A model generated the notes under the pieces. The model ran no database searches. It saw only the letters and a program-made list of their open reading frames with translations, and was not told the origin of the DNA. The translations under genes and the position numbers were made by a program. This document shows positions 4,428 through 27,940 of a DNA stretch of 47,564 bases, one piece after another (position 1 is the stretch's first letter; every line of letters begins with the position of its first letter). The DNA comes from Thermoplasmatales archaeon (lineage in GTDB: Archaea > Thermoplasmatota > E2 > UBA202 > JdFR-43), in the NCBI GenBank assembly GCA_014361245.1, contig JACIWB010000005.1, positions 1 through 47,564 on the forward strand, given 5' to 3'.

Positions 4428-4838
4428 TTTCTTTTCCTGTATAAATTTTTCAACCATTTTAGCAAATTCCTTGAAAGGAGTTGTCCTTCCAAATATTATC
4501 TTTGCTCCTACTCTCTTGAGCTCTTCAGCCCATTTTGTCCCAAACCATGCAGTATAGCCCCATATAACTGCTTCTGGATCAATTTCAAGAATTTTTTCAG
4601 TTGCCCTTATTCCTTCCATTTTAATCTTATCAATCTTTGTATCATCTTTCCCAGAAAGGTTTAAGTCCATTATAACAAGAGAAGGTTTCTCTCCTTTTAG
4701 GAACAACTCTTTATACAACTTTATTCCTTCTGTTGCAGAAAATGCACTTATAATTTCAACATCTCTTATTCTGCTTAAATAACTTTTAAGTATTTCATGT
4801 ATATCTGGCTCATCATCCACAATAAGTATTTTATTCAA
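4401..4838 (-). CDS. Stand-alone response regulator receiver
   Basis: A 145-residue CheY-like receiver with no output domain. Visible elements are the acidic pair Asp8-Asp9 after ILIV, the phospho-acceptor Asp58 in VIMDLNLSG, and the switch Thr96 in WGYTAW. The Lys expected before Pro-Phe is replaced: the local sequence is FGRTTPF, with Thr at that site. A short charged insertion ([11 protein letters not shown]) follows the Asp58 loop. Its start overlaps the end of the sensor gene by 8 bp, so the two are almost certainly translated together and should be partners. The altered Lys site suggests unusual phosphorylation-dependent switching. It could bind a target protein or pass phosphate onward; no target is visible. 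Confidence 0.85.
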
Positions 4839-7800
4839 CTATCTCACCTCTCTGTGTTACATTTTTAATAACCTTTTCTATTCTTTCAAGAGCTTTAATC
4901 GCCTTCTCTATCTTATCTTTTCCATCTTCCTCTTTTGCAAGCTCTAAATATCCTTTTGCTATAACAAGCGGATTGAAGAAATAGTGCGCCGCCCTGGCTT
5001 TAAAATCCATTTCCCTTTCAAGCGCCTCCTTAACTCTTTCAATTGCTTTCACTTTCGCTATGCCCCCCGCCAGCTCCTCGCTCACTGCTTCAAGCAATCT
5101 TATTTTGTTTTCCGTCAGTGGCTTCTCTTGTGTTCCCATCACCTGAATTATGCCATGAATTTCATTTTTTGTTTTCAAGGGCAAGGTTAGCAGTTCTTTC
5201 ATTTTATATTTTTTGTATAAATTTAGGTTGTAGGAAAGTGGCTTATAATTTTGGAGATTTTTTATATATCTTTTTTTCATTGTTAGAAATGATTTCACTG
5301 CTTCCCTTTTCTTATCATTCAGACTATACTCAACTATATTTCTTTCCAAAAATTCTTCTGGATAATTAAGATATGCAATTGGTATCAATGAATTTCTTTC
5401 TTTTTCATAAATAAATATGTTTCCATATTCAATATCAATTATATCAAGCAAGTTTTTAAGGAAGTTTTTGCATAAATCCTCCAACCTGTCGCTTTCATTA
5501 ACACATTTTCCTATATAATAGTGCAAATCAGATAGCTTTTTTATTTCCTCCTCCGCCTCTCTTTTTTCGCTTACATCTCTCAATATACCCATAACTTTTA
5601 CTTCTTCTCCAGCTCCTATTTCAACTGTTGTTGTTTCTACAATCCTCACTTTATTATCCTTTCTAACAATTCTGAATTCATATCTGCTCGGTATCTTCTT
5701 TCCTCTTATTCTTGCCATTTCTCTTTCCTTAATCAATTTTTTATCTTCTTCATATATAAGCTTCCAGAAACTGAAATCCTTGCTCAGCAATTCTTCCTTG
5801 CTATAGCCAGTTAATTTTTCAAAAGCGGGATTAACATATTGAAATCCAGATGGAGTTATAATATAAATTGCATCGCTTGCACTTTCAACAACACTGCGAT
5901 ACTTCTTTTCACTTTCTTCAAGAGCAATCAATGTTTTTATTTCTTCTGTCAAATCTCTTACAACCCCAAGCACAGCATATTTTCCTTCATAAGTAATTAC
6001 ATTTACACGAAATTCACATTCCCTTACATCTCCATTCTTTGTTAAAACTTTTGCTGAATAAAAGTTAGGGACTTCCTCACCTTTAGCCCTCTTTATTCCA
6101 TATTCCCTTACCCTTTCTCTATCATCGGGATGAATTAACTGATATATGTCATCTATGCTCAGCAATTCTTCCTTGGTATAGCCAGTAAGCTGGCAAACTC
6201 TATCATTTACAAATAAAAATTTATTTCCAGCATAAATATAAATTGCATCGCTGCTATTTTCAACAATTGTGCGATATTTTCTTTCACTTTCAATAAGTGC
6301 CTTATTCATTTCCTTTATTTTTGTTATTTCCTTGGCAATGTGAATAATCTTATCAACTTTTCCTTCTCTCATAACCGGAGAAACTGTAACTATGAACTCA
6401 CCTTGGACAGCACTCATCTCCATTGATTTTATTTCTGGCTTTGATGATATAAGCAAATCTACCATCGGACATTTTTCAGCTGGCTTCCTGCTGGAGTGGA
6501 AAATTTCATAACATTTTTTGCCAATAATTTCCTCTTTTCTCTTATTTAAAAGATTTAGGGCAGAAATATTTGCATCAAGAATTGTATGGTCGGGAGCAAG
6601 TATAAGGGAGGGGTCTGTTATTGAATTGAAAATTTTTTCCCATTCTTCCTTTGCATCCGTCAATGCCTTCTCTTTCTCCATCAACTCCGTTATATCTTCT
6701 GCAATTCCTTCATAATAAATAGTTTTTCCTTCCTTATCTCTCACCGCAATGGCACTTTCTCTAACCCAAACAATTTTTCCGTCTCTCCTCTTCCATGCAG
6801 ATATTCCTCTAAAATATCCATCTTTTTCTATCTGCTCTATAAATTTTTTCCTTTCATAACCCGGCTCATAATGTCTCTCATTTTTTAAATCTCTTTTCAT
6901 CAATTCTTCCACGCTTTCATAACCAAGCATTTTTGCAAGGAAAGGATTTGCAATCAATATTTTTCCATCAGGAGTTGTTCTGTATATGCCAACGCTTGCA
7001 TTTTCAAAAATTTTCCTGAATTTTTCCTCACTTTCTTTAAGAGCAATCTTTGCCCTCGTCTCCTCAGTTATATCTATCTGGAAGCCCCAAGCCCCGTAAA
7101 TTTTTCCGTCCTTAACAATTCCAATTAAGGAATTTGAAAAGTATCTTTCCTCTCCCTCTTTGTTTATTTCATGGGAAATCCCTCCATATATTTTGAAACC
7201 ATTTCTTATTGCCTGCCTTAAATACTCTCTATTCTCCTCACTGGCGGGCATGAATTCTGAAACCATTGCTCCAATAATCTCCTCCTTCCTTGCCCCAAGC
7301 ATTCTTGCATATGCATCATTGCATTCAACGCATCTTGCTTTAAATGCTTCCTCTATTATTTCTTCTTCAGGTAAGGAAATATCCAATGGCTTTTCAAGCA
7401 TGTAACAAAATACCCCAATTTCTGCATTGTTTAAAAAATAAGAAAATCTTTCCTCCTTCTCCCTTAATCTCTCCTCCATCTCCTTCTTTTCAGTTATATC
7501 TCTTATAATTCCTTCGTATCCTATCAATTTTCCCTTTTCATCCCTTACTTCGTGACTTGTTTCAAGAACAATCAATTTTTTTCCGTCCTTCCTTTTTATC
7601 TCAACTTCATAATCTTTAATATATCCTTTTTTAGCAACTTCTTCCATAATTTTCTCTCTCTCGCCCGGATTATAGTAAAAATCCTTTGCAATATCTATCT
7701 TAGAAAGCTCTTCCTTGCTTTCATAGCCGAGCAATTTTAAAGCAGCCTCATTTGCATCAATAAATTTCCCTTCAACTGTACTTGCAAGTATTGCATCCTT

Positions 7801-9069
7801 TGTTCTTTCAAACAAACGCTTGTATTTCTCTTCCGCCCTCCTTGTTTTTGTTATATCTGTTATTATTCCGAGAAGAGCTGGCTTTTTTTCATATTCTATA
7901 ATTCCTCCCGTTCCAACAGCCCAATATGTTTTTCCATCCTTAGCAACATATCTGAATTCCGGCACGCTTATCGCTTTTCCTTCAATTATATCTTTTATTG
8001 CATCCTCGACTTTTTTTCTGTCTTCTTCATGAACAACAGATAAATAACCAATCCTATTTAATTCATCTATATCATATCCAACAGCCTCTATAAAAGCTCG
8101 ATTTGCAAATTTTATCTCTCCATCCTGCAAAATAAATATTCCACTGCTGGATTTTTCAGCAATTGTTTTATAAATCTCTTCTTTCTCTTTTAATCTTTCC
8201 TCCGCCCTCTTTCTTTCAAAAGATTCCATCAAATTAACTACAAATTCAGCTACTGAAACAATAAAATTTTTTTCCTCAATACTCCATTCTCTAAAAGAAT
8301 TATGCTCATGGCATATAACTCCAATAAGTTTTCCATTCTTTCTTAAAGCAATGTCCATCATTGATACAATTCCAAATTCTTTCAAATATTCAGCATATTC
8401 ACTTGTTCTTTCATCCTTCATTGCATCGCTTGCATCTATCAATATGCTCTTTTCAAATGCTTCAAAATATCTTGGATAATTCTCAGCTTTTAGCACAATT
8501 CCTCTTTCATGAGAATTTTTACTCAGAGTATATAAGTCATAGCAGACAAGCTCCTTTTTATTTTCATCATAAAACCATAAACTAACTCTCTCCACACCAA
8601 GCGTTTTTGAAACAATTTCATTTATTCTTTTTACAGCAGAATCAAAATCTGGAAAAGGAGTTTTAAGCAAATCAAGAAGCACTTTCTTGTATTCAATATC
8701 TTTCCTTATCCTGCTCACTCTTTCCATGGCAATTTTTATCGAAAAGGGCAACCTTCTCAAGCTATCCTTAATTACATAGTCATCTAGCCCGTGCTTCATT
8801 GCCTCAATTACAACATCCTCGAAAATGCCTGAAAGAACCATTATTACAGGAACAAATTCCTTTCTCTTTTTAACTTCCCTTAAAACTCTTATTCCACTTC
8901 CCCATGGAATTTCATAATCAGTTATTACTACATCATATTCCCTATCAACAATTTCATAAAATTTTCTCTCGCTATATACCTCAAAAAATTCATCATTTGG
9001 AAAATAATTTTTAAGATAATCAACTATTTTTTTCATCTCCTCCCCGCTGGCAACAACAATAAATCTCAT
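4831..9069 (-). CDS. Giant REC-GAF-PAS(7)-GAF sensor with HisKA-like end and no ATPase domain
   Basis: A 1412-residue cytoplasmic sensor with no transmembrane segment. By eye the order is: degenerate receiver 1-120 (Asp51, Ser80 and Lys101 present, but Ala7-Ser8 replace the acidic pair), GAF 145-285, seven PAS units at about 297-410, 412-530, 535-670, 680-795, 805-918, 925-1042 and 1050-1170, a second GAF 1175-1340, and a C-terminal helical pair 1350-1412. That last part reads ARAAHYFFNPLVIAKGYLEL with His1362, like a histidine-kinase dimerisation/phosphoacceptor helix. The protein stops there, with no N, G1 or G2 boxes of an HATPase domain. PAS5 has a Cys-rich KCYEIFHSSRKPAEKCP loop that might bind metal or sense redox. 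It is co-translated with the response regulator. Confidence 0.85.
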   Translation of the reverse strand: MRFIVVASGEEMKKIVDYLKNYFPNDEFFEVYSERKFYEIVDREYDVVITDYEIPWGSGIRVLREVKKRKEFVPVIMVLSGIFEDVVIEAMKHGLDDYVIKDSLRRLPFSIKIAMERVSRIRKDIEYKKVLLDLLKTPFPDFDSAVKRINEIVSKTLGVERVSLWFYDENKKELVCYDLYTLSKNSHERGIVLKAENYPRYFEAFEKSILIDASDAMKDERTSEYAEYLKEFGIVSMMDIALRKNGKLIGVICHEHNSFREWSIEEKNFIVSVAEFVVNLMESFERKRAEERLKEKEEIYKTIAEKSSSGIFILQDGEIKFANRAFIEAVGYDIDELNRIGYLSVVHEEDRKKVEDAIKDIIEGKAISVPEFRYVAKDGKTYWAVGTGGIIEYEKKPALLGIITDITKTRRAEEKYKRLFERTKDAILASTVEGKFIDANEAALKLLGYESKEELSKIDIAKDFYYNPGEREKIMEEVAKKGYIKDYEVEIKRKDGKKLIVLETSHEVRDEKGKLIGYEGIIRDITEKKEMEERLREKEERFSYFLNNAEIGVFCYMLEKPLDISLPEEEIIEEAFKARCVECNDAYARMLGARKEEIIGAMVSEFMPASEENREYLRQAIRNGFKIYGGISHEINKEGEERYFSNSLIGIVKDGKIYGAWGFQIDITEETRAKIALKESEEKFRKIFENASVGIYRTTPDGKILIANPFLAKMLGYESVEELMKRDLKNERHYEPGYERKKFIEQIEKDGYFRGISAWKRRDGKIVWVRESAIAVRDKEGKTIYYEGIAEDITELMEKEKALTDAKEEWEKIFNSITDPSLILAPDHTILDANISALNLLNKRKEEIIGKKCYEIFHSSRKPAEKCPMVDLLISSKPEIKSMEMSAVQGEFIVTVSPVMREGKVDKIIHIAKEITKIKEMNKALIESERKYRTIVENSSDAIYIYAGNKFLFVNDRVCQLTGYTKEELLSIDDIYQLIHPDDRERVREYGIKRAKGEEVPNFYSAKVLTKNGDVRECEFRVNVITYEGKYAVLGVVRDLTEEIKTLIALEESEKKYRSVVESASDAIYIITPSGFQYVNPAFEKLTGYSKEELLSKDFSFWKLIYEEDKKLIKEREMARIRGKKIPSRYEFRIVRKDNKVRIVETTTVEIGAGEEVKVMGILRDVSEKREAEEEIKKLSDLHYYIGKCVNESDRLEDLCKNFLKNLLDIIDIEYGNIFIYEKERNSLIPIAYLNYPEEFLERNIVEYSLNDKKREAVKSFLTMKKRYIKNLQNYKPLSYNLNLYKKYKMKELLTLPLKTKNEIHGIIQVMGTQEKPLTENKIRLLEAVSEELAGGIAKVKAIERVKEALEREMDFKARAAHYFFNPLVIAKGYLELAKEEDGKDKIEKAIKALERIEKVIKNVTQRGEIVE

Positions 9070-9155: not shown

Positions 9156-10826
9156 GTGATGAAATTAAGTATAATTTTGGTATTTATATGTGCTTTTTTA
9201 GTTATACCATTTGCAAGAGCAATAGATACAGATAAGGATGGAATAAGTGACGAGGATGAATTATCCTATGCAAAAGAATTTGCTCCAATACTTTATTTTG
9301 AGAAAGGTGAAGAAGTTTATCCAGTTGCTGTTGAATACCACATAAAAAACTCGAATTTGAATAAAAGCGTTGATGGAGAAAATATTTTAGTTGATTCAAA
9401 TCCTTCAGCTGAAAATCTTTCAAAATATAAAAATCCAGATGAAAACTATTATCTTGACAACAGAAAAGGAAGCATAGATGATAACGGAATAATAGAGGAT
9501 TACATAAATGAAATGGAAGAGCTCGGCTACGCTGTTTATGCGAGAGTTACTCCTTCTGGAAGCAACATAGTAATACAATACTGGTTCTTCTATGCCTTCA
9601 ATAAAGGTCCTCTCAACATACATGAAGGCGACTGGGAAATGGTTCAATTAATAATTGACCCCTCGTCTCAGCCAACCTACGCAATGTACAGCCAGCACAA
9701 CGGCGGGCAGAAGGCGGAATGGAAAGATGTTGAAAAAGATGGAAATCACATTAAAGTATATGTTGCAAGAGGAAGCCATGCAAATTATTTCATGTATTAT
9801 CAGGGTAAAACGGGGCTTGCAAATGATGCAGTGGGCAAGAATGGAAAAATAATTTATCCAGATGATTATAATTTGGTGATATTATGGGAGAAAGGAAATC
9901 ATATAAGCCAGCAAAACTGGATTGATTTTGCTGGAAGATGGGGAGAATTTGGAAGTGCAGAAGATGAATTGAGGGGAAAGAGAGGTCCATATGGTCCAGC
10001 TTATAGAGAAAATGGAGAAATGTGGAATAAACCAGTTGAATGGGGAGAAAGTTTATCATCTCTCAGTCCTTTAATGCTAAAACTTGACTGGTTTTTCTAT
10101 AACTTTGTTCTTATATTCATGTTGCTAACAGTTTTATCCCTATTAATTATTTTATTCTCCATTTATCGCAGATATAAAAAGACCGGAAAGAAATCATTAT
10201 TCTTCCTTTCCATAGATGGTATGAATGCAAAAAGTATTGGAAATATTCTCTGTATATTGGGAATAGTTATTGCTTTTCTCTCTCTTTTATTCCCATGGTA
10301 TAGTGTTTTTGTAGATATTCAAGCTGGTTCATATAAAACCCCTGGTATGGTAAAAATAATCTCAATAGATGGAATGGAAGGAATAAAGTTAAACCTGATG
10401 GAGAAAAATAGTGGCTTAGTTCAATTCTTTTCATTTCCAATACCATTTTCATATGTAATTGGAATAGGATTGTTCCTTTTCATCCTTGGCTTTATTGGAA
10501 TAATTGAAAGCAGAAAAGCTGGTAGAAAATATATTTCGAGAGGGATAAAGTTAATGGTTCCTTTTATTCTAATAATAGCTGTTGCAATTTTAATTTCAAG
10601 AATTCCTTCAATGCAGAGCATTCCCTATCAGGACGATATAAAAGAAATTATGGAGAAAATATCATCCTCGCCATTAAAAGGAGATGAAAATCTTTTACTT
10701 CCAAATTATGGAAGTTTGCATCTTAAATGGGGAATTGATATTGGGGCAATAATGCTTCTCATTTCTGGAATTATTCTTATTATTGCTGGAATTATTGAAA
10801 TAAAAGCAAAAGAGGAAGTCAAATAA
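9156..10826 (+). CDS. Secreted/membrane protein with Vps62-like domain
   Basis: A 556-residue exported protein. Residues 1-23 form a signal peptide (KLSIILVFICAFLVIPFARA). DTDKDGISDEDE next resembles a calcium-binding thrombospondin-3-type loop. Residues about 37-290 resemble the Vps62/DUF946 family, with FAPILYFEKGEEVYPVAVEY, the IQYWFFYAFN strand, HEGDWEMVQLII, and VYVARGSHANYF. The C-terminal half has about five membrane segments (near 312-335, 362-385, 430-455, 470-490 and 535-552). Vps62-like domains occur in fungal, plant and some bacterial proteins without a settled function. The domain would face outside. GTG at 9156 and ATG at 9159 are both possible starts. The 3' end overlaps the convergent gene by 8 bp. 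Confidence 0.75.
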   Translation: MMKLSIILVFICAFLVIPFARAIDTDKDGISDEDELSYAKEFAPILYFEKGEEVYPVAVEYHIKNSNLNKSVDGENILVDSNPSAENLSKYKNPDENYYLDNRKGSIDDNGIIEDYINEMEELGYAVYARVTPSGSNIVIQYWFFYAFNKGPLNIHEGDWEMVQLIIDPSSQPTYAMYSQHNGGQKAEWKDVEKDGNHIKVYVARGSHANYFMYYQGKTGLANDAVGKNGKIIYPDDYNLVILWEKGNHISQQNWIDFAGRWGEFGSAEDELRGKRGPYGPAYRENGEMWNKPVEWGESLSSLSPLMLKLDWFFYNFVLIFMLLTVLSLLIILFSIYRRYKKTGKKSLFFLSIDGMNAKSIGNILCILGIVIAFLSLLFPWYSVFVDIQAGSYKTPGMVKIISIDGMEGIKLNLMEKNSGLVQFFSFPIPFSYVIGIGLFLFILGFIGIIESRKAGRKYISRGIKLMVPFILIIAVAILISRIPSMQSIPYQDDIKEIMEKISSSPLKGDENLLLPNYGSLHLKWGIDIGAIMLLISGIILIIAGIIEIKAKEEVK

Positions 10827-18128: not shown

Positions 18129-18277
18129 TGTTTTTTGAATTCAGTATAACCACAATTACCGCAACTTATCCTATTTTTGTGCTCCGCCATAAAAACGCCG
18201 GGCCCGCATTTCGGGCATTCTTTCCTTTTCCTCACTATTTTACCATCCTTCACTTCATATATCTCTCTTTTATTCAT
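18125..18277 (-). CDS. rps27ae: 30S ribosomal protein S27ae
   Basis: A 50-residue zinc-ribbon protein of the small subunit (eS31), found by reading the frame between rps24e and gcvPA. It starts [20 protein letters not shown] and continues with zinc ligands CPKCG (21-24) and CGNCGY (39-42), ending EFKKQ. The ATG at 18277 overlaps the rps24e stop as ATGA and is preceded by a strong AAGGAGGAG site. Its stop overlaps the gcvPA start in the same way. Eukaryotic S27a is a ubiquitin fusion; the archaeal version, as here, is free. Confidence 0.93.
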
Positions 18278-18296
18278 TTTTTCTCCTCCTTCTTTT
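18273..18296 (-). promoter_or_regulatory. Shine-Dalgarno block inside the rps24e tail
   Basis: On the minus strand this reads AAAAGAAGGAGGAG, then A-rich sequence and the rps27ae ATG overlapping the rps24e TGA. The GGAGGAG core is a strong ribosome site, and in the rps24e frame the same bases encode Lys-Glu-Glu-Lys-Lys-stop. The same 24 bases recur at 19244-19267. Confidence 0.75.
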
Positions 18297-19075: not shown

Positions 19076-19248
19076 CTAACCTTCAGGGCATATTTTCCAG
19101 GAGCTTTGACCCCTACTTTCTGAGCAATTTTTGAATTATTTACATCCACTATTATCATATATCCCTGCCATTCATCGCTCGTCGCCTCTGAGCAGAAAGG
19201 GCATATATTTTTGTTTGTAAGAACATGACATTTTCTGCACGCCTTCAT
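19072..19248 (-). CDS. spt4: RNA polymerase subunit E''/elongation factor Spt4
   Basis: A 58-residue zinc-ribbon protein, formerly RpoE'', the archaeal Spt4 partner of Spt5 in transcript elongation. It begins MKACRKCHVLTNKNICPFC, giving two CxxC zinc knuckles (CRKC, CPFC), followed by WQGYMIIVDVNNSKIAQKVG and a PGKYALKV end. I take the ATG at 19248: it overlaps the rpo7 stop as ATGA and has a strong AAGGAGGAG site, while a start at 19278 would add 10 rpo7-overlapping residues. Spt5 is not in this window. Confidence 0.93.
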   Translation of the reverse strand: MKACRKCHVLTNKNICPFCSEATSDEWQGYMIIVDVNNSKIAQKVGVKAPGKYALKVR

Positions 19249-19267
19249 TTTTTCTCCTCCTTCTTTT
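19244..19267 (-). promoter_or_regulatory. Shine-Dalgarno block inside the rpo7 tail
   Basis: These 24 bases are identical to 18273-18296. They provide AAGGAGGAG ahead of the spt4 ATG and at the same time encode the Lys-Glu-Glu-Lys-Lys end of Rpo7. Confidence 0.75.
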
Positions 19268-21040: not shown

Positions 21041-21667
21041 GTGAAGAAAGCAATAATTTTTGCAATTTTTGCAATTCTGGCAATATCAACAGTTGTATCC
21101 GCTGAGAAAATTATTGATAAAGAAAATGATGTGCTATATGTTGAATGGGATGAAAATTTAAATAGTTATAAGAGCATTTCTTCTTCAAATAAACCGAATA
21201 TTGATATAAAAGAAGTATCATATGAAATAACAAGCGATGGAAATATTATTCTAAAGCTGAAAGTTTATGGAAATATAGAGAAATCGGATAAAGTTTTTTA
21301 TTGGATAAACCTGAATACAACAGAAAGAAACTATTATGTTGTTTTTTCAAATAATACCCAAATATGCTATAGCATGAAGGGAGAAAACATTTCAACCTAT
21401 ATTTCAGGTGAGTTAACTCATTATGGCGACACTATCGTAGCAACCTTTAAATCAGCTGGTTTAGGCGAGAAAATCGAATTTTTGGCTTATTCAGCGGAAT
21501 ATGAAAGGCTCGATGTTAGAAATAGATGGTATGGTGACTGGGTTCCAGATAAATTTTCTCCTGTTTATGAGGAAAAGCAGGAAACAAAAGAAAAGAAAGG
21601 TTTGCCTGGTTTTGAGCTAATTTTAATTTTGTTAGCTATTACGATTATATTATGGAGAAAAAGATAG
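21041..21667 (+). CDS. Secreted protein with PGF-CTERM-like anchor
   Basis: A 208-residue exported protein of unknown function. It has a signal peptide (about 1-22, IIFAIFAILAISTVVSA), a mostly beta-strand domain rich in Asn-X-Ser/Thr sites (for example NTTE, NNTQ, NIST), a charged KQETKEKK spacer, and a C-terminal LPGFELILILLAITIILWRKR. That end fits the PGF-CTERM pattern: Pro-Gly-Phe, a hydrophobic helix, a basic end, which is cut by archaeosortase A with lipid attachment in haloarchaea. The domain brings to mind proteins reporting on surface hydrolysis, but I do not recognise it. Its 3' end overlaps DUF429 by 16 bp. Confidence 0.75.
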   Translation: MKKAIIFAIFAILAISTVVSAEKIIDKENDVLYVEWDENLNSYKSISSSNKPNIDIKEVSYEITSDGNIILKLKVYGNIEKSDKVFYWINLNTTERNYYVVFSNNTQICYSMKGENISTYISGELTHYGDTIVATFKSAGLGEKIEFLAYSAEYERLDVRNRWYGDWVPDKFSPVYEEKQETKEKKGLPGFELILILLAITIILWRKR

Positions 21668-22190: not shown

Positions 22191-25100
22191 ATGTATAAGG
22201 GGATGGGTTTAAATAAAATATTGCCTGTATTTGTTGGAATAGTAGTTTTAACTGTGATATTTTATGAAGCAAGAAGCAGTTACCCAAAAATAATATTTGT
22301 TGATGATGATTTTACAAATGATCCAGCAAATCATAAATGGAACAATATAGAAGATGCAATAAATGATGCAAATGATGGCGATACAATATTTGTTTTTAAT
22401 GGAACATATCAAAAAAATATTTTTATAAATAAGGAAATAAGGATTGTTGGGATAGGAGATGTAACTTTAGATGGAATTGGAAAAGATTATGCGATAAACA
22501 TTCTTTCAGAAAATGTAATTTTAGAAAACTTGAATGTAAGAAATGCCATAAAAGCTTTAATAAAAATATCAAAAGACAATGTTATCGTAAATAATTGCTC
22601 CTTTATAGGAAATAACATCACTGGTTTGGAAATAAATGCGAATAATATAGAGTTAAGAAATTGTAAGATAGAAGGAACATTCATAGCAATTAATGCAAGC
22701 GGTAGAAATATAAGAGTTATAAATACAAGCGTAGAAAATCCAGCAAAAGGATGGGGAATAATACTAAAAAATTCAAAGGATTGTTTATTTGAGAATATAA
22801 GCATCTCTAATATAGAAAATAAAAGCTTTAAAATAGAGAATTCATCAAATATAACCCTTTCAAAAATTTCTGTAAATAATTCATTCTGCGGAATACTATT
22901 GCTTGAAACAAATAACTCATCATTGTCTTTTATAAATCTTTCAGAAAATAAGATAGGGATAAAGATAGAAAAATCAATCAATAATACAATAAGGGATTGC
23001 AACTTTTTAAGAAATATAGGATATGGAATATATCTTGAAAATTCTTACAACAATTCAATATATCACAACAACTTTATTGATAATGGAATAAATGCGTTTG
23101 ATGATGGAGCAAACATATGGAATAAAAGCGTTGGCAATTACTGGAGCAACTACGCTGGCAGGGATGAAAATAATGATGGGATAGGAGATGAACCATATCA
23201 TTTTCTCAATTGTATAGATTTTCTTCCCTTAATTAATAAAATTGAATATCCTCCTTCTTTTGTTTGGGTTGATGATAATTATAATCAGCAAACAACTGGC
23301 TGGGGGATAGATCATTTCAATAACCTGCAGGAAGCCATAAATGCTGTTAAGGAGGGAGGAAAATGCCGTGTTTATAATGGGACTTATGGAAGAGTTTTCA
23401 TAAATAAAAGTTTGGAAATTTTTGGCGATAAAAATGCAAAAATAATTTCAAGCGGAGATGCTGTTATAATATCTGCAAAAGATTTAAAGATTGGAGGTTT
23501 TGAAATCTCTGGAAGCGAAAATTGCCTGAGAATTCAGAATTCAGAGAATTTGAGTATTTTTGATTGCAAATTCAGAAATGGATTATTTGGAATATATCTA
23601 ATAAATTCTTTCAACTGCTCTATCTGGAATTCTTCAGTATCAGGAAATACAAAAGGAATATACCTCTTCAATTCATCATTTGTAAATATCTCAAAAAGCA
23701 TTGTATCCAATAATTCATATTTTGGAATAGAAATAAGCCACAATTCATCTAAAAATACAATATATGATTGCTCGATAGAAAATAACGGATATTATGGTAT
23801 TTATATAATTTCATCAAATAACAGCATCTGGCATAATAACTTCATAAACAATACCGCATATGATATGGGTAAAAACGAATGGAATTCAGACTATGAGAGA
23901 GCGATTGGCAACTACTGGAGCAACTACGCTGGCAGGGATGAAAATAATGATGGGATAGGAGATGAGCCATATAGTCTGGAAGGCGGCGCAAATGATTTCT
24001 ACCCCCTAATGAATAAAATTTCTTATCCTCCAAAATTTGTGTGGGTAAGCCGCTCATTTAATGAAACAATTCCTGGCTGGGGCGTTGATCATTCCTCAAA
24101 CTTAAATGATGCAATTGAGATGCTACAAGAAGGCGGCGGGTGCTTTGTTTTTCCTGGATTATATGAGGAAAATGTTAGAATAGATAAGAAAGTTTTTATA
24201 GGGGGGCTAAATGCAACAATTGATGGAAATGGGGAAAGTGTTTTTAACTTATCGGGAAATAATATAAGCGTTTATAATTTGACTATAAGAAATTGCTGGG
24301 GAGATGCGGGAATAAAAATTTTTGGAGAGAATGTTTCTATAAGGGGATGCGAGATATACAGTAGCCATTATGGAATAAAAATATATGGGAGAAATGCGAC
24401 ATTGGAAAACTGCTCAATTCATGATAATTCATTTAATGGGATATATGTTGGAAAAAATGTTTCAAGAATAGCAAATTGCTCCATATATAACAACAATAAT
24501 GGAATTTACATTGAAAGCAATTCAAATAGAATAGAAAATAGCAGTTTCAATAACTGTGTTATATGCATTAAAATAATAAATTCTTCAGGAAATGAGATGT
24601 ATAAAAATATTTTCAGAAAAAGTATGTATGGCGTATATCTTACAAATTCTTCTGGAAATGCTATATATTTCAACAACTTCATTGAAAATGGAATAAATGC
24701 ATTTGATGATGGGGCAAACATATGGAATAAAAGCGTTGGCAACTACTGGAGCAACTACGCTGGCAGTGATGAAAATGTAGATGGGATAGGAGATGAACCA
24801 TATATAATAGATGAGAATAGCATTGATTATTTACCGTTGATAAAAGAAGCTGGTAAGCCAATATGCAAATTTAATTTTTCCCCTACAATTCCCTATTCTT
24901 TGGAAGAAGTGAGCTTTATCGATGCTTCCTTTGATTTTGACGGAGATATTGTTTCTTGGTTTTGGAGTTTTGGGGATGAAAATTATAGCAATGAGAGGAA
25001 TCCAAAACATGCATATGCTAAAAGAGGAATTTATAAAATAAAATTAACAGTATTTGACGATGAAGGGAAAAATGACACAATGGAAAAATATATAGAAGTT

Positions 25101-26765
25101 TTAAATTTGCCTCCAGTTGCAAACTTTACATGGGAGCCACTTAGCCCAACAGATTTAGATAATATCACTTTCAATGCTTCTTCAAGCTATGATTTAGATG
25201 GCTACATTGTAAATTATACATGGCAATTTGGAGATGGAAGCATTGCTTATGGAGAAATTGTCCAGCATAGATACACAGATAATGGAACATATAATGTTAC
25301 TCTAAGCATAATAGATGATGATGGAGGAGAAAATAATATAACAAAATCAATAGAAGTTTTAAATTTGCCTCCAGTTGCAAATTTCACATATGAGCCATTG
25401 CAGCCATTTTCTCTAACAACCATTACTTTCAATGCTTCTTCAAGCTATGATTTAGATGGCTACATAGTTAATTATACATGGCAATTTGGAGACGGAAGCT
25501 TCGGCTATGGCATAATTGCTGAGCATTCTTATAATTCCTCTGGAACATATAATGTTACTCTAAGCATAACAGATGATGATGGGGGAGAAAATAATATAAC
25601 AAAATCAATAGAAGTTTTGAATTTGCCTCCTGTTGCAAACTTTACTTGGCAGCCACCTAACCCAACAGATTTAGATAATATTATTTTCAATGCCTCTTCA
25701 AGCTATGATTTAGATGGAAGCATAGTCAATTATACATGGCAATTTGGAGATGGAAGCATTGCTTATGGAGAAATTGTCCAGCATAGATACACAGATAATG
25801 GAACATATAATGTTACTCTAAGCATAATAGATGATGATGGAGGGGAAAATAATATAACAAAATCAATAGTTGTTTTGAATGTGCCTCCAGTTGCAAACTT
25901 CTTTTCAATAGATAATGTTACAATCCTCGATAAAGTTTATTTCTATTCAGACAAGCCAAACTATGCTTCATTTGATCCTGATGGAAAAATAGTAAATTAT
26001 ACCTGGAGTTTTGGAGACGGAAATATCAGCCATGAAAAGAATCCTTCACATCAGTATAGGAACAAGGGTGTTTATAAAATAACCCTAACTGTTACAGATG
26101 ATGATGGAGCAAAATCAAATATTTCAAAGTCAATCATGGTAATAAACTTGCCTCCTTATGCAGATTTTGAATTTGAGCCAGCAAGCCCAACAGATTTGGA
26201 CCAGATATTTTTCAATGCAAACAAAAGCTATGATTTGGATGGTTCCATAGTTAATTTTACATGGCAATTTGGAGATGGAAATATTGGTTACGGAATAAAC
26301 ATAACTCATAAATATGCAGACAACGGGAGTTATCTTGTAATCCTCACTATAACAGATAACGATGGCAAAATTGCAACAAAAGAAAAGAGCATAGAGGTTG
26401 CAAATATTCCGCCCTATGCCGCCTTCTATGCGCCGGAGGAGGCAAGAGAAAAGGAGGAAGTTACTTTTGATGCATCAATGAGCCATGACACGGATGGTGA
26501 AATTGTTAGCTATTCTTGGGATTTGGATGGGGATGGTGTTATAGATGCTCAGGGCAAGGTAGTAAAGTATAGATATGAGCGCAGGGGGGCGTATACAGTA
26601 AAATTGATTGTTTTTGATAATGATGGGGCAAACAGCACTTTTTATGGCTTTATAAATATAAGGGAAAAGGAAAAAATACCTGGATTTGAGCTTGTGATAA
26701 TAATAGCTGCTTCAGCAATCCTTATATTTATGAGGAAGTATAGATTAGGAATATGGAGAATATAA
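22191..26765 (+). CDS. Giant surface protein: NosD-like beta-helix, seven PKD domains, PGF-CTERM
   Basis: A 1524-residue cell-surface protein. A signal or start hydrophobic helix (8-25, ILPVFVGIVVLTVIFYEA) precedes three right-handed beta-helix blocks of the NosD/copper-binding-repeat type, at about 34-352, 353-615 and 616-885. Each opens with a FVWV or IFVDDDF motif and an EAIN...GG segment; each ends with the Asp/Asn loop NYWSNYAGRDENNDGIGDEP. Seven PKD domains follow at about 890-1490, each with WxFGDG, a YxxxGxYxVxLxxxDDDG core and LPPVANF-type linkers. The end IPGFELVIIIAASAILIFMR fits PGF-CTERM anchoring. The many Asn-X-Ser/Thr sites suggest glycosylation. An alternative ATG at 22203 is possible. 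Adhesion or a carbohydrate-active scaffold is likely; no catalytic motif was seen. Confidence 0.88.
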   Translation: MYKGMGLNKILPVFVGIVVLTVIFYEARSSYPKIIFVDDDFTNDPANHKWNNIEDAINDANDGDTIFVFNGTYQKNIFINKEIRIVGIGDVTLDGIGKDYAINILSENVILENLNVRNAIKALIKISKDNVIVNNCSFIGNNITGLEINANNIELRNCKIEGTFIAINASGRNIRVINTSVENPAKGWGIILKNSKDCLFENISISNIENKSFKIENSSNITLSKISVNNSFCGILLLETNNSSLSFINLSENKIGIKIEKSINNTIRDCNFLRNIGYGIYLENSYNNSIYHNNFIDNGINAFDDGANIWNKSVGNYWSNYAGRDENNDGIGDEPYHFLNCIDFLPLINKIEYPPSFVWVDDNYNQQTTGWGIDHFNNLQEAINAVKEGGKCRVYNGTYGRVFINKSLEIFGDKNAKIISSGDAVIISAKDLKIGGFEISGSENCLRIQNSENLSIFDCKFRNGLFGIYLINSFNCSIWNSSVSGNTKGIYLFNSSFVNISKSIVSNNSYFGIEISHNSSKNTIYDCSIENNGYYGIYIISSNNSIWHNNFINNTAYDMGKNEWNSDYERAIGNYWSNYAGRDENNDGIGDEPYSLEGGANDFYPLMNKISYPPKFVWVSRSFNETIPGWGVDHSSNLNDAIEMLQEGGGCFVFPGLYEENVRIDKKVFIGGLNATIDGNGESVFNLSGNNISVYNLTIRNCWGDAGIKIFGENVSIRGCEIYSSHYGIKIYGRNATLENCSIHDNSFNGIYVGKNVSRIANCSIYNNNNGIYIESNSNRIENSSFNNCVICIKIINSSGNEMYKNIFRKSMYGVYLTNSSGNAIYFNNFIENGINAFDDGANIWNKSVGNYWSNYAGSDENVDGIGDEPYIIDENSIDYLPLIKEAGKPICKFNFSPTIPYSLEEVSFIDASFDFDGDIVSWFWSFGDENYSNERNPKHAYAKRGIYKIKLTVFDDEGKNDTMEKYIEVLNLPPVANFTWEPLSPTDLDNITFNASSSYDLDGYIVNYTWQFGDGSIAYGEIVQHRYTDNGTYNVTLSIIDDDGGENNITKSIEVLNLPPVANFTYEPLQPFSLTTITFNASSSYDLDGYIVNYTWQFGDGSFGYGIIAEHSYNSSGTYNVTLSITDDDGGENNITKSIEVLNLPPVANFTWQPPNPTDLDNIIFNASSSYDLDGSIVNYTWQFGDGSIAYGEIVQHRYTDNGTYNVTLSIIDDDGGENNITKSIVVLNVPPVANFFSIDNVTILDKVYFYSDKPNYASFDPDGKIVNYTWSFGDGNISHEKNPSHQYRNKGVYKITLTVTDDDGAKSNISKSIMVINLPPYADFEFEPASPTDLDQIFFNANKSYDLDGSIVNFTWQFGDGNIGYGINITHKYADNGSYLVILTITDNDGKIATKEKSIEVANIPPYAAFYAPEEAREKEEVTFDASMSHDTDGEIVSYSWDLDGDGVIDAQGKVVKYRYERRGAYTVKLIVFDNDGANSTFYGFINIREKEKIPGFELVIIIAASAILIFMRKYRLGIWRI
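23085..23198 (+). repeat. 114-bp coding repeat, copy 1 (of NosD blocks)
   Basis: This segment encodes GINAFDDGANIWNKSVGNYW and the Asp-rich loop that follows. It aligns base for base, with few changes, to 24690-24803. The last 66 bases recur also at 23907-23972 with only two differences. Such DNA identity in otherwise diverged blocks suggests recent duplication or gene conversion. Confidence 0.85.
23907..23972 (+). repeat. 66-bp coding repeat, middle copy
   Basis: Encodes the end-of-block loop GNYWSNYAGRDENNDGIGDE followed by PY. It differs from 23133-23198 at two positions, both silent or nearly so. Confidence 0.85.
24690..24803 (+). repeat. 114-bp coding repeat, copy 2 (of NosD blocks)
   Basis: Second copy of the segment at 23085-23198. 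It carries changes that give SDENVDGIGDEP in the loop, so the acidic ligand pattern is kept. Confidence 0.85.
25212..25327 (+). repeat. 116-bp exact repeat in PKD domain 2
   Basis: Identical over 116 bases to 25728-25843 (PKD domain 4), at an offset of 516 bp, which is two PKD units. PKD domain 3 between them is clearly less alike. Exact identity over a stretch with free silent sites points to gene conversion or recent expansion. Confidence 0.85.
25728..25843 (+). repeat. 116-bp exact repeat in PKD domain 4
   Basis: Partner of 25212-25327. The match begins in the NYTWQFGDG segment and runs to the IDDDGG turn. Confidence 0.85.
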
Positions 26766-27940
26766 AATTTATAAGAGATTCGCTGTACGGAAATATAAAG
26801 GTAGAGGGAATTATTCTTGAATTGCTTGAAACCGCTGAACTGCAGAGATTGCATGGAATAAAGCAACTTGGATTTACATATCTTGTTTATCCTGGAGCAA
26901 ATCATACGAGATTTGAACACTCTCTTGGAACAGCATTTATAGCAGGGAAGATATGTGAGGCATTAGGAATTGAGAAAGAAGAAATTGTTATTGCATCTCT
27001 TTTGCATGATGTTGGGCATGGTCCTTTTTCTCATACTCTTGAAAATATATTACATGAAAGGACGGGAAAAAATCATGTTGATATAGGAAAAGATATTATT
27101 CTTGGCAGAAAAATTTTAAGCGAGCATAAAAATGTTGCAGAAGTTCTTGAAAAATATGGGATAGATAATAAAGAAATTGTTGAAATTTTAAACGGCGAAA
27201 AAGAATATAGCTCAGAAATAATTCATGGTTCTCTTGATGCGGATCAAATAGATTATTTAATGAGAGATGCTTATTATACTGGTGTAGCTTATGGTGTTAT
27301 AGATAGCGATAGGTTAATTCAGACAATGAAATTATATGATGGGAAAATTGTTTTTGAAAAGAAAGGCATTAGCGCTCTTGAAAGCCTGCTTGTTGCAAGG
27401 GCGTTGATGTATTCTTCCGTTTATCTTCATAAAACTGTAAGGATAGCTGAATTAATGCTTGTAAAGGCAATAAAAAAAATTGATTTTGATTTTTCATTGC
27501 TTAATGATTGCGAGTTAATTGAAAAGCTTAAAAATTCAGGAGAATATCAAAAAGATATTGTAAGCAGGCTGAAATATAGAAAACTATTTAAGAAAGCTTT
27601 TGCAAAAAGTTTTGATGAGCTGAATGAAAAGGAAAGAGGAATTCTTGCAGAAGTAAATATAAGCGATGTTGAAGAAGAAATTGCAAAGAAAGTTGGCATA
27701 GATGATGGCTACATAATTGTTGATATTCCTGGAAAGGATATACTGCTTTCAGAACCAAGGATAAGAAAAGTTGATATAAAAGTTATTGACGATGGGAAAG
27801 TAAAAAATCTTGGAGAACTAACTCCTCTGGCAAATGCACTTCAAGCAAGGGGAATAACAGATTGGGCTATAATGGTATGCTGTCCCGAGGAGTATAGAAG
27901 GGAGGTAGAAAAGTATTCAAATAAAATAATATTTGGATAA
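26753..27940 (+). CDS. HD-domain phosphohydrolase (dNTPase/SAMHD1-like)
   Basis: A 395-residue HD-superfamily metal hydrolase. The early segment IRDSLYGNIKVEGIILELLE and LQRLHGIKQLGFTYLVYPGA matches SAMHD1/dGTPase-like archaeal proteins. Metal motifs are TRFEHSLGTAF (His), SLLHDVGHGPFSHTLE (His-Asp) and GSLDADQIDYLMRDAYYTGV (Asp). All four HD ligands look present. Relatives hydrolyse dNTPs or other nucleotides; the substrate here is unknown. It overlaps the giant surface-protein gene by 13 bp, and the macrodomain gene starts 2 bp after its stop, so nucleotide clean-up of the pair is plausible. Confidence 0.87.
   Translation: MENIKFIRDSLYGNIKVEGIILELLETAELQRLHGIKQLGFTYLVYPGANHTRFEHSLGTAFIAGKICEALGIEKEEIVIASLLHDVGHGPFSHTLENILHERTGKNHVDIGKDIILGRKILSEHKNVAEVLEKYGIDNKEIVEILNGEKEYSSEIIHGSLDADQIDYLMRDAYYTGVAYGVIDSDRLIQTMKLYDGKIVFEKKGISALESLLVARALMYSSVYLHKTVRIAELMLVKAIKKIDFDFSLLNDCELIEKLKNSGEYQKDIVSRLKYRKLFKKAFAKSFDELNEKERGILAEVNISDVEEEIAKKVGIDDGYIIVDIPGKDILLSEPRIRKVDIKVIDDGKVKNLGELTPLANALQARGITDWAIMVCCPEEYRREVEKYSNKIIFG

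Follow-up and report, generated by a model that had tools for sequence, protein, structure and literature searches.

The window analysed here, a 47.6-kb stretch of DNA that forms contig C5 of a 1.48-Mb, 105-contig assembly, carries on its plus strand a giant gene (22191-26765) that is a single open frame of 1,524 amino acids with no internal stop. Pfam finds in the protein seven stretches of PKD_4 (PF18911; 445 bits, gathering cut-off 27), three of NosD (PF05048; 166.8 bits, gathering cut-off 23.6) and three of Beta_helix. The product would be a secreted, probably C-terminally anchored surface protein in which three beta-helix blocks sit on a stalk of seven PKD domains. The features used throughout are given below, where G000 is the own genome and G001 a same-genus relative.

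22191-26765 (+): gene for the putative giant surface protein, 1,524 aa; open frame, Pfam NosD, Beta_helix and PKD_4, positional orthologs with a downstream HD gene
22290-23249 (+): right-handed beta-helix block 1 (NosD/CASH type); Pfam, AlphaFold model, fold matches to the AlgE6 A-module and NosD
23250-24026 (+): beta-helix block 2; Pfam NosD best stretch 407-581, start set by motif, model
24027-24854 (+): beta-helix block 3; Pfam Beta_helix best stretch 688-830, start set by motif, model
23085-23198 (+): loop 1 segment (GNYW...DxNxDGxGD), homogenised with loop 3; 7 differences in 114 bp against 24690-24803, core of 53 bp identical to loop 2
23907-23972 (+): loop 2 core, homogenised with loop 1; 2 differences in 66 bp
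24690-24803 (+): loop 3 segment; 114-bp segment in common with loop 1
24855-25109 (+): PKD1, one-to-one with the G001 ortholog; amino-acid identity 0.75 to unit 1 of G001 and at most 0.45 to its other units, starred tree pair
25110-25367 (+): PKD2, concerted; identities, unit tree, AU test
25212-25327 (+): 116-bp tract in PKD2 equal to the PKD4 tract; exact identity, codon-shuffle null
25368-25625 (+): PKD3, mosaic; patch comparison and permutation test
25504-25563 (+): patch in PKD3 matching a PKD unit of another gene of the same genome (C24:4726-4983); 52/60 against 41/60 to PKD2 and PKD4
25626-25883 (+): PKD4, concerted; identities, unit tree, AU test
25728-25843 (+): 116-bp tract in PKD4 equal to the PKD2 tract; exact identity
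25884-26660 (+): PKD5, PKD6 and PKD7, one-to-one with G001; amino-acid identity 0.79, 0.76 and 0.72 on the diagonal, starred tree pairs
26679-26762 (+): C-terminal PGFE motif, hydrophobic stretch and basic tail (sorting-like signal); read from sequence
26753-27940 (+): HD-domain gene overlapping the 3′ end and stop codon of the giant gene, synteny marker; Pfam HD and HD_assoc_2

An AlphaFold model of residues 30-975 (13 sequences) has a mean pLDDT of 92.9 and a pTM of 0.65. Fold comparison, whose rows cover mainly model residues 2-324 (block 1), matches this block to the A-module of the mannuronan C5-epimerase AlgE6 (model residues 5-321; VIA Z 31.8, 2.3 Å, 291 residues) and to NosD 7osf (model residues 23-324; Z 31.5, 2.4 Å, 294 residues), as well as to many polysaccharide-acting beta-helices, phage tailspikes and the pneumococcal adhesin PfbA (Z 28.7). 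Such matches to a predicted model show a beta-helix fold, not an activity, and adhesion or glycan binding would be a guess from fold and architecture. The family model NosD_copper_fam (TIGR04247) gives the giant 251.5 bits, below its cut-off of 300, and the genome contains no match at E≤1 to the nos_propeller domain of nitrous oxide reductase (PF18764), a weak test in which no control genome passed the cut-off.

Read by eye, the C-terminus from P1497 onwards consists of PGFE, a hydrophobic stretch and basic residues, and no CTERM sorting-signal model matches the giant protein at E≤1. The 208-aa neighbour (21041-21667) ends with a similar PGFE, hydrophobic and basic tail. The genome encodes an archaeosortase A (C1:93711-94445; TIGR04125, 149.4 bits, cut-off 75) and has no match to the exosortase family PF09721. 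Given the PGFE-type C-terminus, the similar neighbour and the archaeosortase A, export and anchoring of the giant protein are likely, and archaeosortase A may be what anchors its C-terminus. No functional link to the adjoining HD-domain gene is evident. Elsewhere in the window, 9156-10826 encodes a 556-aa protein with a match to Vps62 (PF06101, 45.7 bits), a family named from a vacuolar sorting protein, and searches for RNA families and tRNAs in the 47.6 kb returned none.

Exact repeats in the PKD stalk and the loops

The initial annotation had reported a 116-bp stretch of PKD2 to be identical to PKD4, with PKD3 between them different. This is exactly what we find: 25212-25327 and 25728-25843 agree at all 116 bp, and PKD3 differs from both tracts at 24 of these positions. 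All exact same-strand 24-mer repeats in the window lie inside the giant gene except one pair (18273-18296 and 19244-19267), which on the minus strand comprises a Shine-Dalgarno-like stretch and an ATG. The other tandem-domain giant of the window, a sensor gene (4831-9069) whose 1,412-aa product starts like a response regulator and holds about seven PAS domains and two GAF domains, has no exact internal 24-mer repeat.

For a codon-shuffle null, we kept the protein, reshuffled the gene's own synonymous codons 1,000 times and scored the longest intragenic exact repeat. In the giant gene the shuffles gave a median of 23 bp and a maximum of 50 bp against 116 bp observed, and the longest exact match between the giant and its G001 ortholog is 33 bp. 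The same test was applied to six genes in all, selected because their repeats are long from the 16 ortholog copies, every one of which had been scanned for exact repeats; observed lengths of 116, 160, 99, 113, 268 and 111 bp compare with shuffle maxima of 50, 42, 38, 53, 53 and 45 bp, so that the observed length was reached in 0 of 1,000 shuffles for each gene. Copying at the DNA level goes beyond protein constraint. Run tests on PKD2-4 were less informative. With silent sites alone the test was not significant in G000 (16 sites, P 0.21; P 0.02 with PKD6 added), while with all sites, where amino-acid constraint enters, P was ≤0.0004 for G000 and G001 and ≤0.005 for a further relative, G008. 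Low values also came from the control set of PKD1, 5, 6 and 7, both for the sum-of-squares statistic (P 0.0054 in G000, 0.0002 in G001 and 0.025 in G008) and, in G001, for the longest run (P 0.019). Because silent sites are few, constraint enters the all-site test and the control P values are low, we prefer the codon shuffle.

The loops lie near the end of each beta-helix block. The initial annotation had both a 66-bp and a 114-bp loop segment repeated with few changes across the three blocks, which holds for the former (at 23133, 23907 and 24738, with 2, 5 and 5 pairwise differences) but not for the latter, which is common to blocks 1 and 3 only (23085 and 24690, 7 differences). These exchanges join blocks 774 to 1,605 bp apart, and the blocks between exchanging loops remain distinct. 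The Asp/Asn calcium-type pattern noted earlier is borne out by fixed positions in 24 loops of eight genes, where the successive positions of DxNxDGxGD are D in 24, N or D in 24 (19 and 5), D or N in 24 (23 and 1), G in 24 and D in 24. We take these acidic positions to be in line with a calcium loop of the DxDxDG type, and the loops may thus be calcium-stabilised, as judged from their residues; a literature search for DxDxDG calcium binding in beta-helices returned nothing relevant.

Codon by codon, loops 1 and 3 of G000 are identical at 39 of 51 positions, with 4 silent and 8 other differences. Comparable values are found in G009 (41/51) and between the two loops read in G003 (41/51), G002 is intermediate (26/51), and the loops of G008, G017, G021 and G019 are not homogenised. 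Neither are those of G001 as aligned without gaps (18/51), where loop 3 carries a five-residue insertion: near residue 856 this ortholog (L010) reads NKSIGNRSVGNYW where G000 has NKSVGNYW. The insertion looks like a possible scar of misaligned exchange. Loops 1 and 3 of G009 have 113 exact bases in common. They differ from the G000 loops in protein and in codons, and homogenisation therefore looks separate in each. Loop tracts longer than the codon shuffles allow occur at ortholog loci L014 and L023. Loop trees of 75 columns resolved nothing (p 0.31-0.53 for orthologous loop pairs, 0.47 for the block-2 loops held together).

Orthologous loci and the origin of PKD3

Our ortholog search covered 59 genomes (58 relatives and the own genome) and yielded 16 usable copies, own included, whose loci are given L-numbers (L010 for G001, L016 for G019, L018 for G004 and L023 for G003). 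Relatives were found encoded on 26 named contigs, of which 19 are assigned to Thermoplasmata or Thermoplasmatales and several come from AUK- and HyVt-labelled isolates; judged from these, the organism would itself be one of the Thermoplasmata. The HD-domain gene adjoins the giant in 12 of the 16 loci (own included), and the other four stop short of the giant's 3′ end. Length variation, which had been proposed from the one sequence, is present between species: the number of PKD units ranges from 3 to 7, with seven in L009-L013 (five orthologs, own included), five in L014, L022 and L023, three in L015 and at least six in L017 and L018, the remaining copies being partial. The searches turned up no second genome of the species itself. 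At L016 a peptidase C13-like domain is inserted within PKD1 (protein residues 991-1140; 23.9 bits, cut-off 22.8), and a similar insert is visible by eye at L018, in a copy whose frame is moreover broken close to where that PKD ends.

Exact repeats of at least 62 bp occur in 10 of the 16 copies (own included, several partial). The six without one are L012, whose longest is 44 bp, and L016, L019, L020, L021 and L022, with none of 24 bp or more; all but L012 were read in part. The exact tracts are lineage-specific, each related species having its own sequence, with 160 bp (PKD2/3), 99 bp (PKD2/4), 113 bp (loops 1/3) and 268 bp (units two apart) among those of other species. PKD2 and PKD4 are the units linked by the longest identical tract of G000 and likewise by that of G008, and the 268-bp tract of G006 links the first and third of six units read. 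G006 is also the sole copy in which the longest tract is not shorter than one unit. The spacing of matches in G003 (L023) had suggested that this copy lost one beta-helix block, a reading that we rejected. The contig of this genome starts within a 111-bp exact copy of the block 2 start, repeated in block 3; either the start of block 3 was overwritten or the contig was cut there.

Comparison of G000 with G001 separates two sets of units. PKD1, PKD5, PKD6 and PKD7 match by position (amino-acid identity 0.75, 0.79, 0.76 and 0.72, against 0.34-0.63 in the off-diagonal cells of those rows and columns), whereas PKD2-4 give 0.64-0.74 for every pair whatever its position and 0.74-0.92 within the G000 gene and 0.72-0.92 within that of G001. 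The within-gene values in G000 are 0.92 for PKD2/PKD4, 0.81 for PKD2/PKD3 and 0.74 for PKD3/PKD4. A tree built from 29 units gives starred support to pairing by position for PKD1, PKD5, PKD6 and PKD7. It also places the last units of five genes together in one starred set. PKD2 and PKD4 of G000 pair with each other (92/80), as do PKD2 and PKD3 of G001 (92/93). The AU test rejects orthologous pairing of PKD2 (p 8.5e-5) and of PKD4 (p 4.0e-5) and does not reject that of PKD3 (p 0.064). The tree does not show PKD2-4 of G000 as one group, and the AU test does not reject that grouping (p 0.50). PKD2 and PKD4 evolve in concert; PKD1, 5, 6 and 7 do not.

PKD3 of G001 is a mosaic of a PKD4-like 5′ part and a PKD2-like 3′ part (permutation P 5e-5): of its 45 informative sites, unit nt 131-257 hold 27 PKD2-like and no PKD4-like sites, and the rest hold 2 and 16. 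Two further comparisons gave no bounded tract. PKD2 of G000, with PKD2 of G001 as the other parent, is PKD4-like over its full length, at 46 of 53 informative sites, and PKD3 of G001 was set against PKD3 of G000 and its own PKD2 (62/71). Both returned P 1.0 because almost the entire unit follows its neighbour in the own gene, a pattern that fits unit replacement as well as short tracts.

PKD3 of G000 had been noted as differing from the identical tracts on either side of it. This is not just the state of a unit that an exchange passed over, as its divergent patch matches another gene. This patch, unit nt 137-196 (25504-25563), agrees at 52 of 60 positions with a PKD unit (C24:4726-4983, hereafter C24u) in a 1,564-codon frame of the own genome with PKD and NosD matches, and at 41 of 60 with PKD2 and with PKD4. 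On its 3′ side PKD3 agrees with PKD2, PKD4 and C24u at 59, 56 and 33 of 62 positions, and in the adjoining 76 bases on its 5′ side at 71, 68 and 56; the first 60 bases of PKD3 are equally distant from all three (39, 36 and 38 of 60). A three-sequence permutation gave P 0.00035 (PKD4/C24u) and 0.00005 (PKD2/C24u) with the best segment at 25504-25540, values uncorrected for the choice of C24u, a unit selected post hoc because no other stretch compared gave a better match. PKD3 of the giant has the motif EHSYNSSG in common with the C24-type gene of G000 and with that of G001. This motif is absent from C24-type units aligned from 13 other genomes, from the PKD units of six compared relatives and from elsewhere in the loci examined. 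PKD3 thus probably differs in part because it acquired, once, a patch from another gene's PKD unit, and these matches would suggest the direction from the C24-type gene to PKD3. The absence of the patch from PKD3 of G001 gives no date for the exchange, because that unit itself seems overwritten by PKD2. In the patch region C24u agrees with its own G001 ortholog at 50 of 60 positions, about equal to the 52 of 60 between PKD3 and C24u; the exchange may therefore date from around the time when G000 and G001 separated and need not be recent.

Other genes of the genome also carry such repeats. Among 15 further PKD/NosD stretches, 8 contain exact self-repeats of at least 24 bp and 7 have none; six of the eight were scored within one frame (on contigs C24, C1, C9, C49, C3 and C10). 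The exact intragenic repeats in other PKD/NosD genes reach 85 bp (C49), the loci being those on C49, C1, C9, C3 and C10 (L097, L095, L096, L100 and L106), and the genes of the C1 cluster have exact stretches in common of up to 52 bp.

Probable gene conversion and its alternatives

We consider recurrent gene conversion of PKD2-4 and the loops to be very probable, chiefly inside the one gene and, in one probable instance, from another gene. The conversion proposed in the initial annotation is strengthened by the orthologs, in which PKD2-4 are concerted while PKD1, 5, 6 and 7 are not and other species have exact copies of their own. Tens to a few hundred bases would be copied, recurrently, between repeats of one gene (PKD2-4 and the Asp-rich loops), and on one occasion a tract from a different gene's PKD unit was probably copied into PKD3. 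Conversion through ordinary homologous recombination would be a likelier route than balanced unequal crossing-over. Related species share the copying process while the sequences are their own, so the process is real.

In the main competing explanation, PKD2-4 were lost and re-duplicated in each lineage by unequal crossing-over and their likeness reflects recent duplication. The variation in PKD number (seven in five orthologs, five in three and three in one), the high identity of whole adjacent units in G001 and the comparisons that fit whole-unit replacement without a bounded tract (P 1.0) all speak for it. We nevertheless regard it as unlikely, since the longest tract skips a unit in G000, G008 and G006, with a different PKD3 in between in G000, and since the longest tracts fall short of one unit in all copies but G006. 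Moreover, exactly seven units are kept in five orthologs, PKD1 and PKD5-7 stay in place in the same-genus pair, and the loop exchanges span 774 to 1,605 bp across intervening blocks that are distinct. Protein constraint or codon bias alone could be invoked for the loops, whose GNYW...DxNxDGxGD motif is near-invariant in protein and, as GNYWSDY...DxNxDGxGD, recurs in NosD, whose structure is solved (7o0y), and in the entry 2kzw for an uncharacterized protein. The protein-preserving shuffles of six genes speak against this, as do the orthologous loops of other genera, which keep the protein motif with many different codons, and we give this account next to no credence.

The identical tracts might also be products of assembly collapse or chimera, a concern raised with the initial annotation. 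The assembly is in 105 contigs, some of which end at PKD repeats: the first 125 bp of contig C24 exactly repeat its positions 4808-4932, and an exact repeat of 131 bp closes contig C45. It thus seems that repeats of 125-131 bp broke this assembly and the 116-bp repeat, which is below that size, did not. Each 116-bp copy has its own flanks, and other genomes show tracts of different sequence and extent in the same domains; we judge an assembly artefact very improbable, though a shade less so than constraint alone. As contigs seem to break at repeats of that size, the longest tracts may hide at contig ends. Gaps in the ortholog contigs fall inside or at the edge of PKD2-4 in G006, G013 and G005 and not in G010, G003 and G020 (G012 is ambiguous), which is suggestive only. 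Genes of this sort may be interrupted in short-read assemblies at the very places where exchange is youngest, and archaeal surface-protein variation may be under-reported.

With recurrent conversion as the preferred reading, converting units (PKD2-4, loops) and units that stay in place (PKD1, 5-7) within one gene offer a natural control. A wider and unlikely extension, which we rate only slightly above unequal crossing-over, is that surface-protein genes form a shared cassette pool, in which tracts homogenise the PKD stalk and patches are imported from other surface genes without dedicated silent cassettes. If true, it would mean a standing, antigenic-variation-like diversification of exposed stalk faces and loops, and if inter-gene patches are frequent, these archaea would have a general means of surface variation.

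Comparison with known systems

Literature searches for gene conversion in archaeal PKD domain proteins and for archaeal NosD beta-helix surface proteins found no match, and the part of PMC2447325 consulted holds nothing on exchange. Concerted evolution of paralogous genes in prokaryotes is treated by Wang and Chen (PMC6053082), as far as the consulted part of that paper goes. From the portion of Makarova et al. 2021 (PMC8416519) considered here, the PKD-repeat surface proteins of Methanosarcinales are mosaic, and their C-terminal Ig domains are either conserved or made alike through recombination. The giant resembles them in being archaeal and mosaic, with PF18911 repeats that recombination homogenises. 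Unlike that case, which as described there concerns loci of several genes, exchange is here resolved codon by codon in one positional ortholog group, with the units and loops named. The same portion describes VARTIG of Thermococcales, with a C-terminal Ig domain made hypervariable by exchange between species. Both are large archaeal Ig-fold proteins altered by recombination, but the last PKD of the giant keeps its place across species (the starred PKD7 pair of G000 and G001), and on this description the giant falls outside the VARTIG type.

Among bacteria, high DNA identity is proposed to drive intragenic recombination in Periscope Proteins (PMC8201768, in the part consulted), likewise surface proteins with a projecting stalk of near-identical tandem domains. 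Of the giant's units, PKD2/PKD4 (0.92) and PKD2/PKD3 (0.81) reach the Periscope level of tandem repeats of more than 50 residues at 80% identity or above, and PKD3/PKD4 (0.74) falls short. As far as that source allows comparison, the giant differs in that only PKD2-4 are near-identical, the putative anchor is of an archaeal type and length changes between species; conversion without change in number seems to dominate in it, unlike in Periscope Proteins. With NosD, which acts in nitrous oxide reductase maturation (7o0y), the giant has in common the beta-helix fold and the GNYWSDY...DxNxDGxGD loop, and it differs in its three blocks and PKD stalk and in its subthreshold NosD family score. In all, the copying is of a kind already known from other surface proteins, of which the giant is a well-resolved new case, and the probable inter-gene patch is its most interesting feature.
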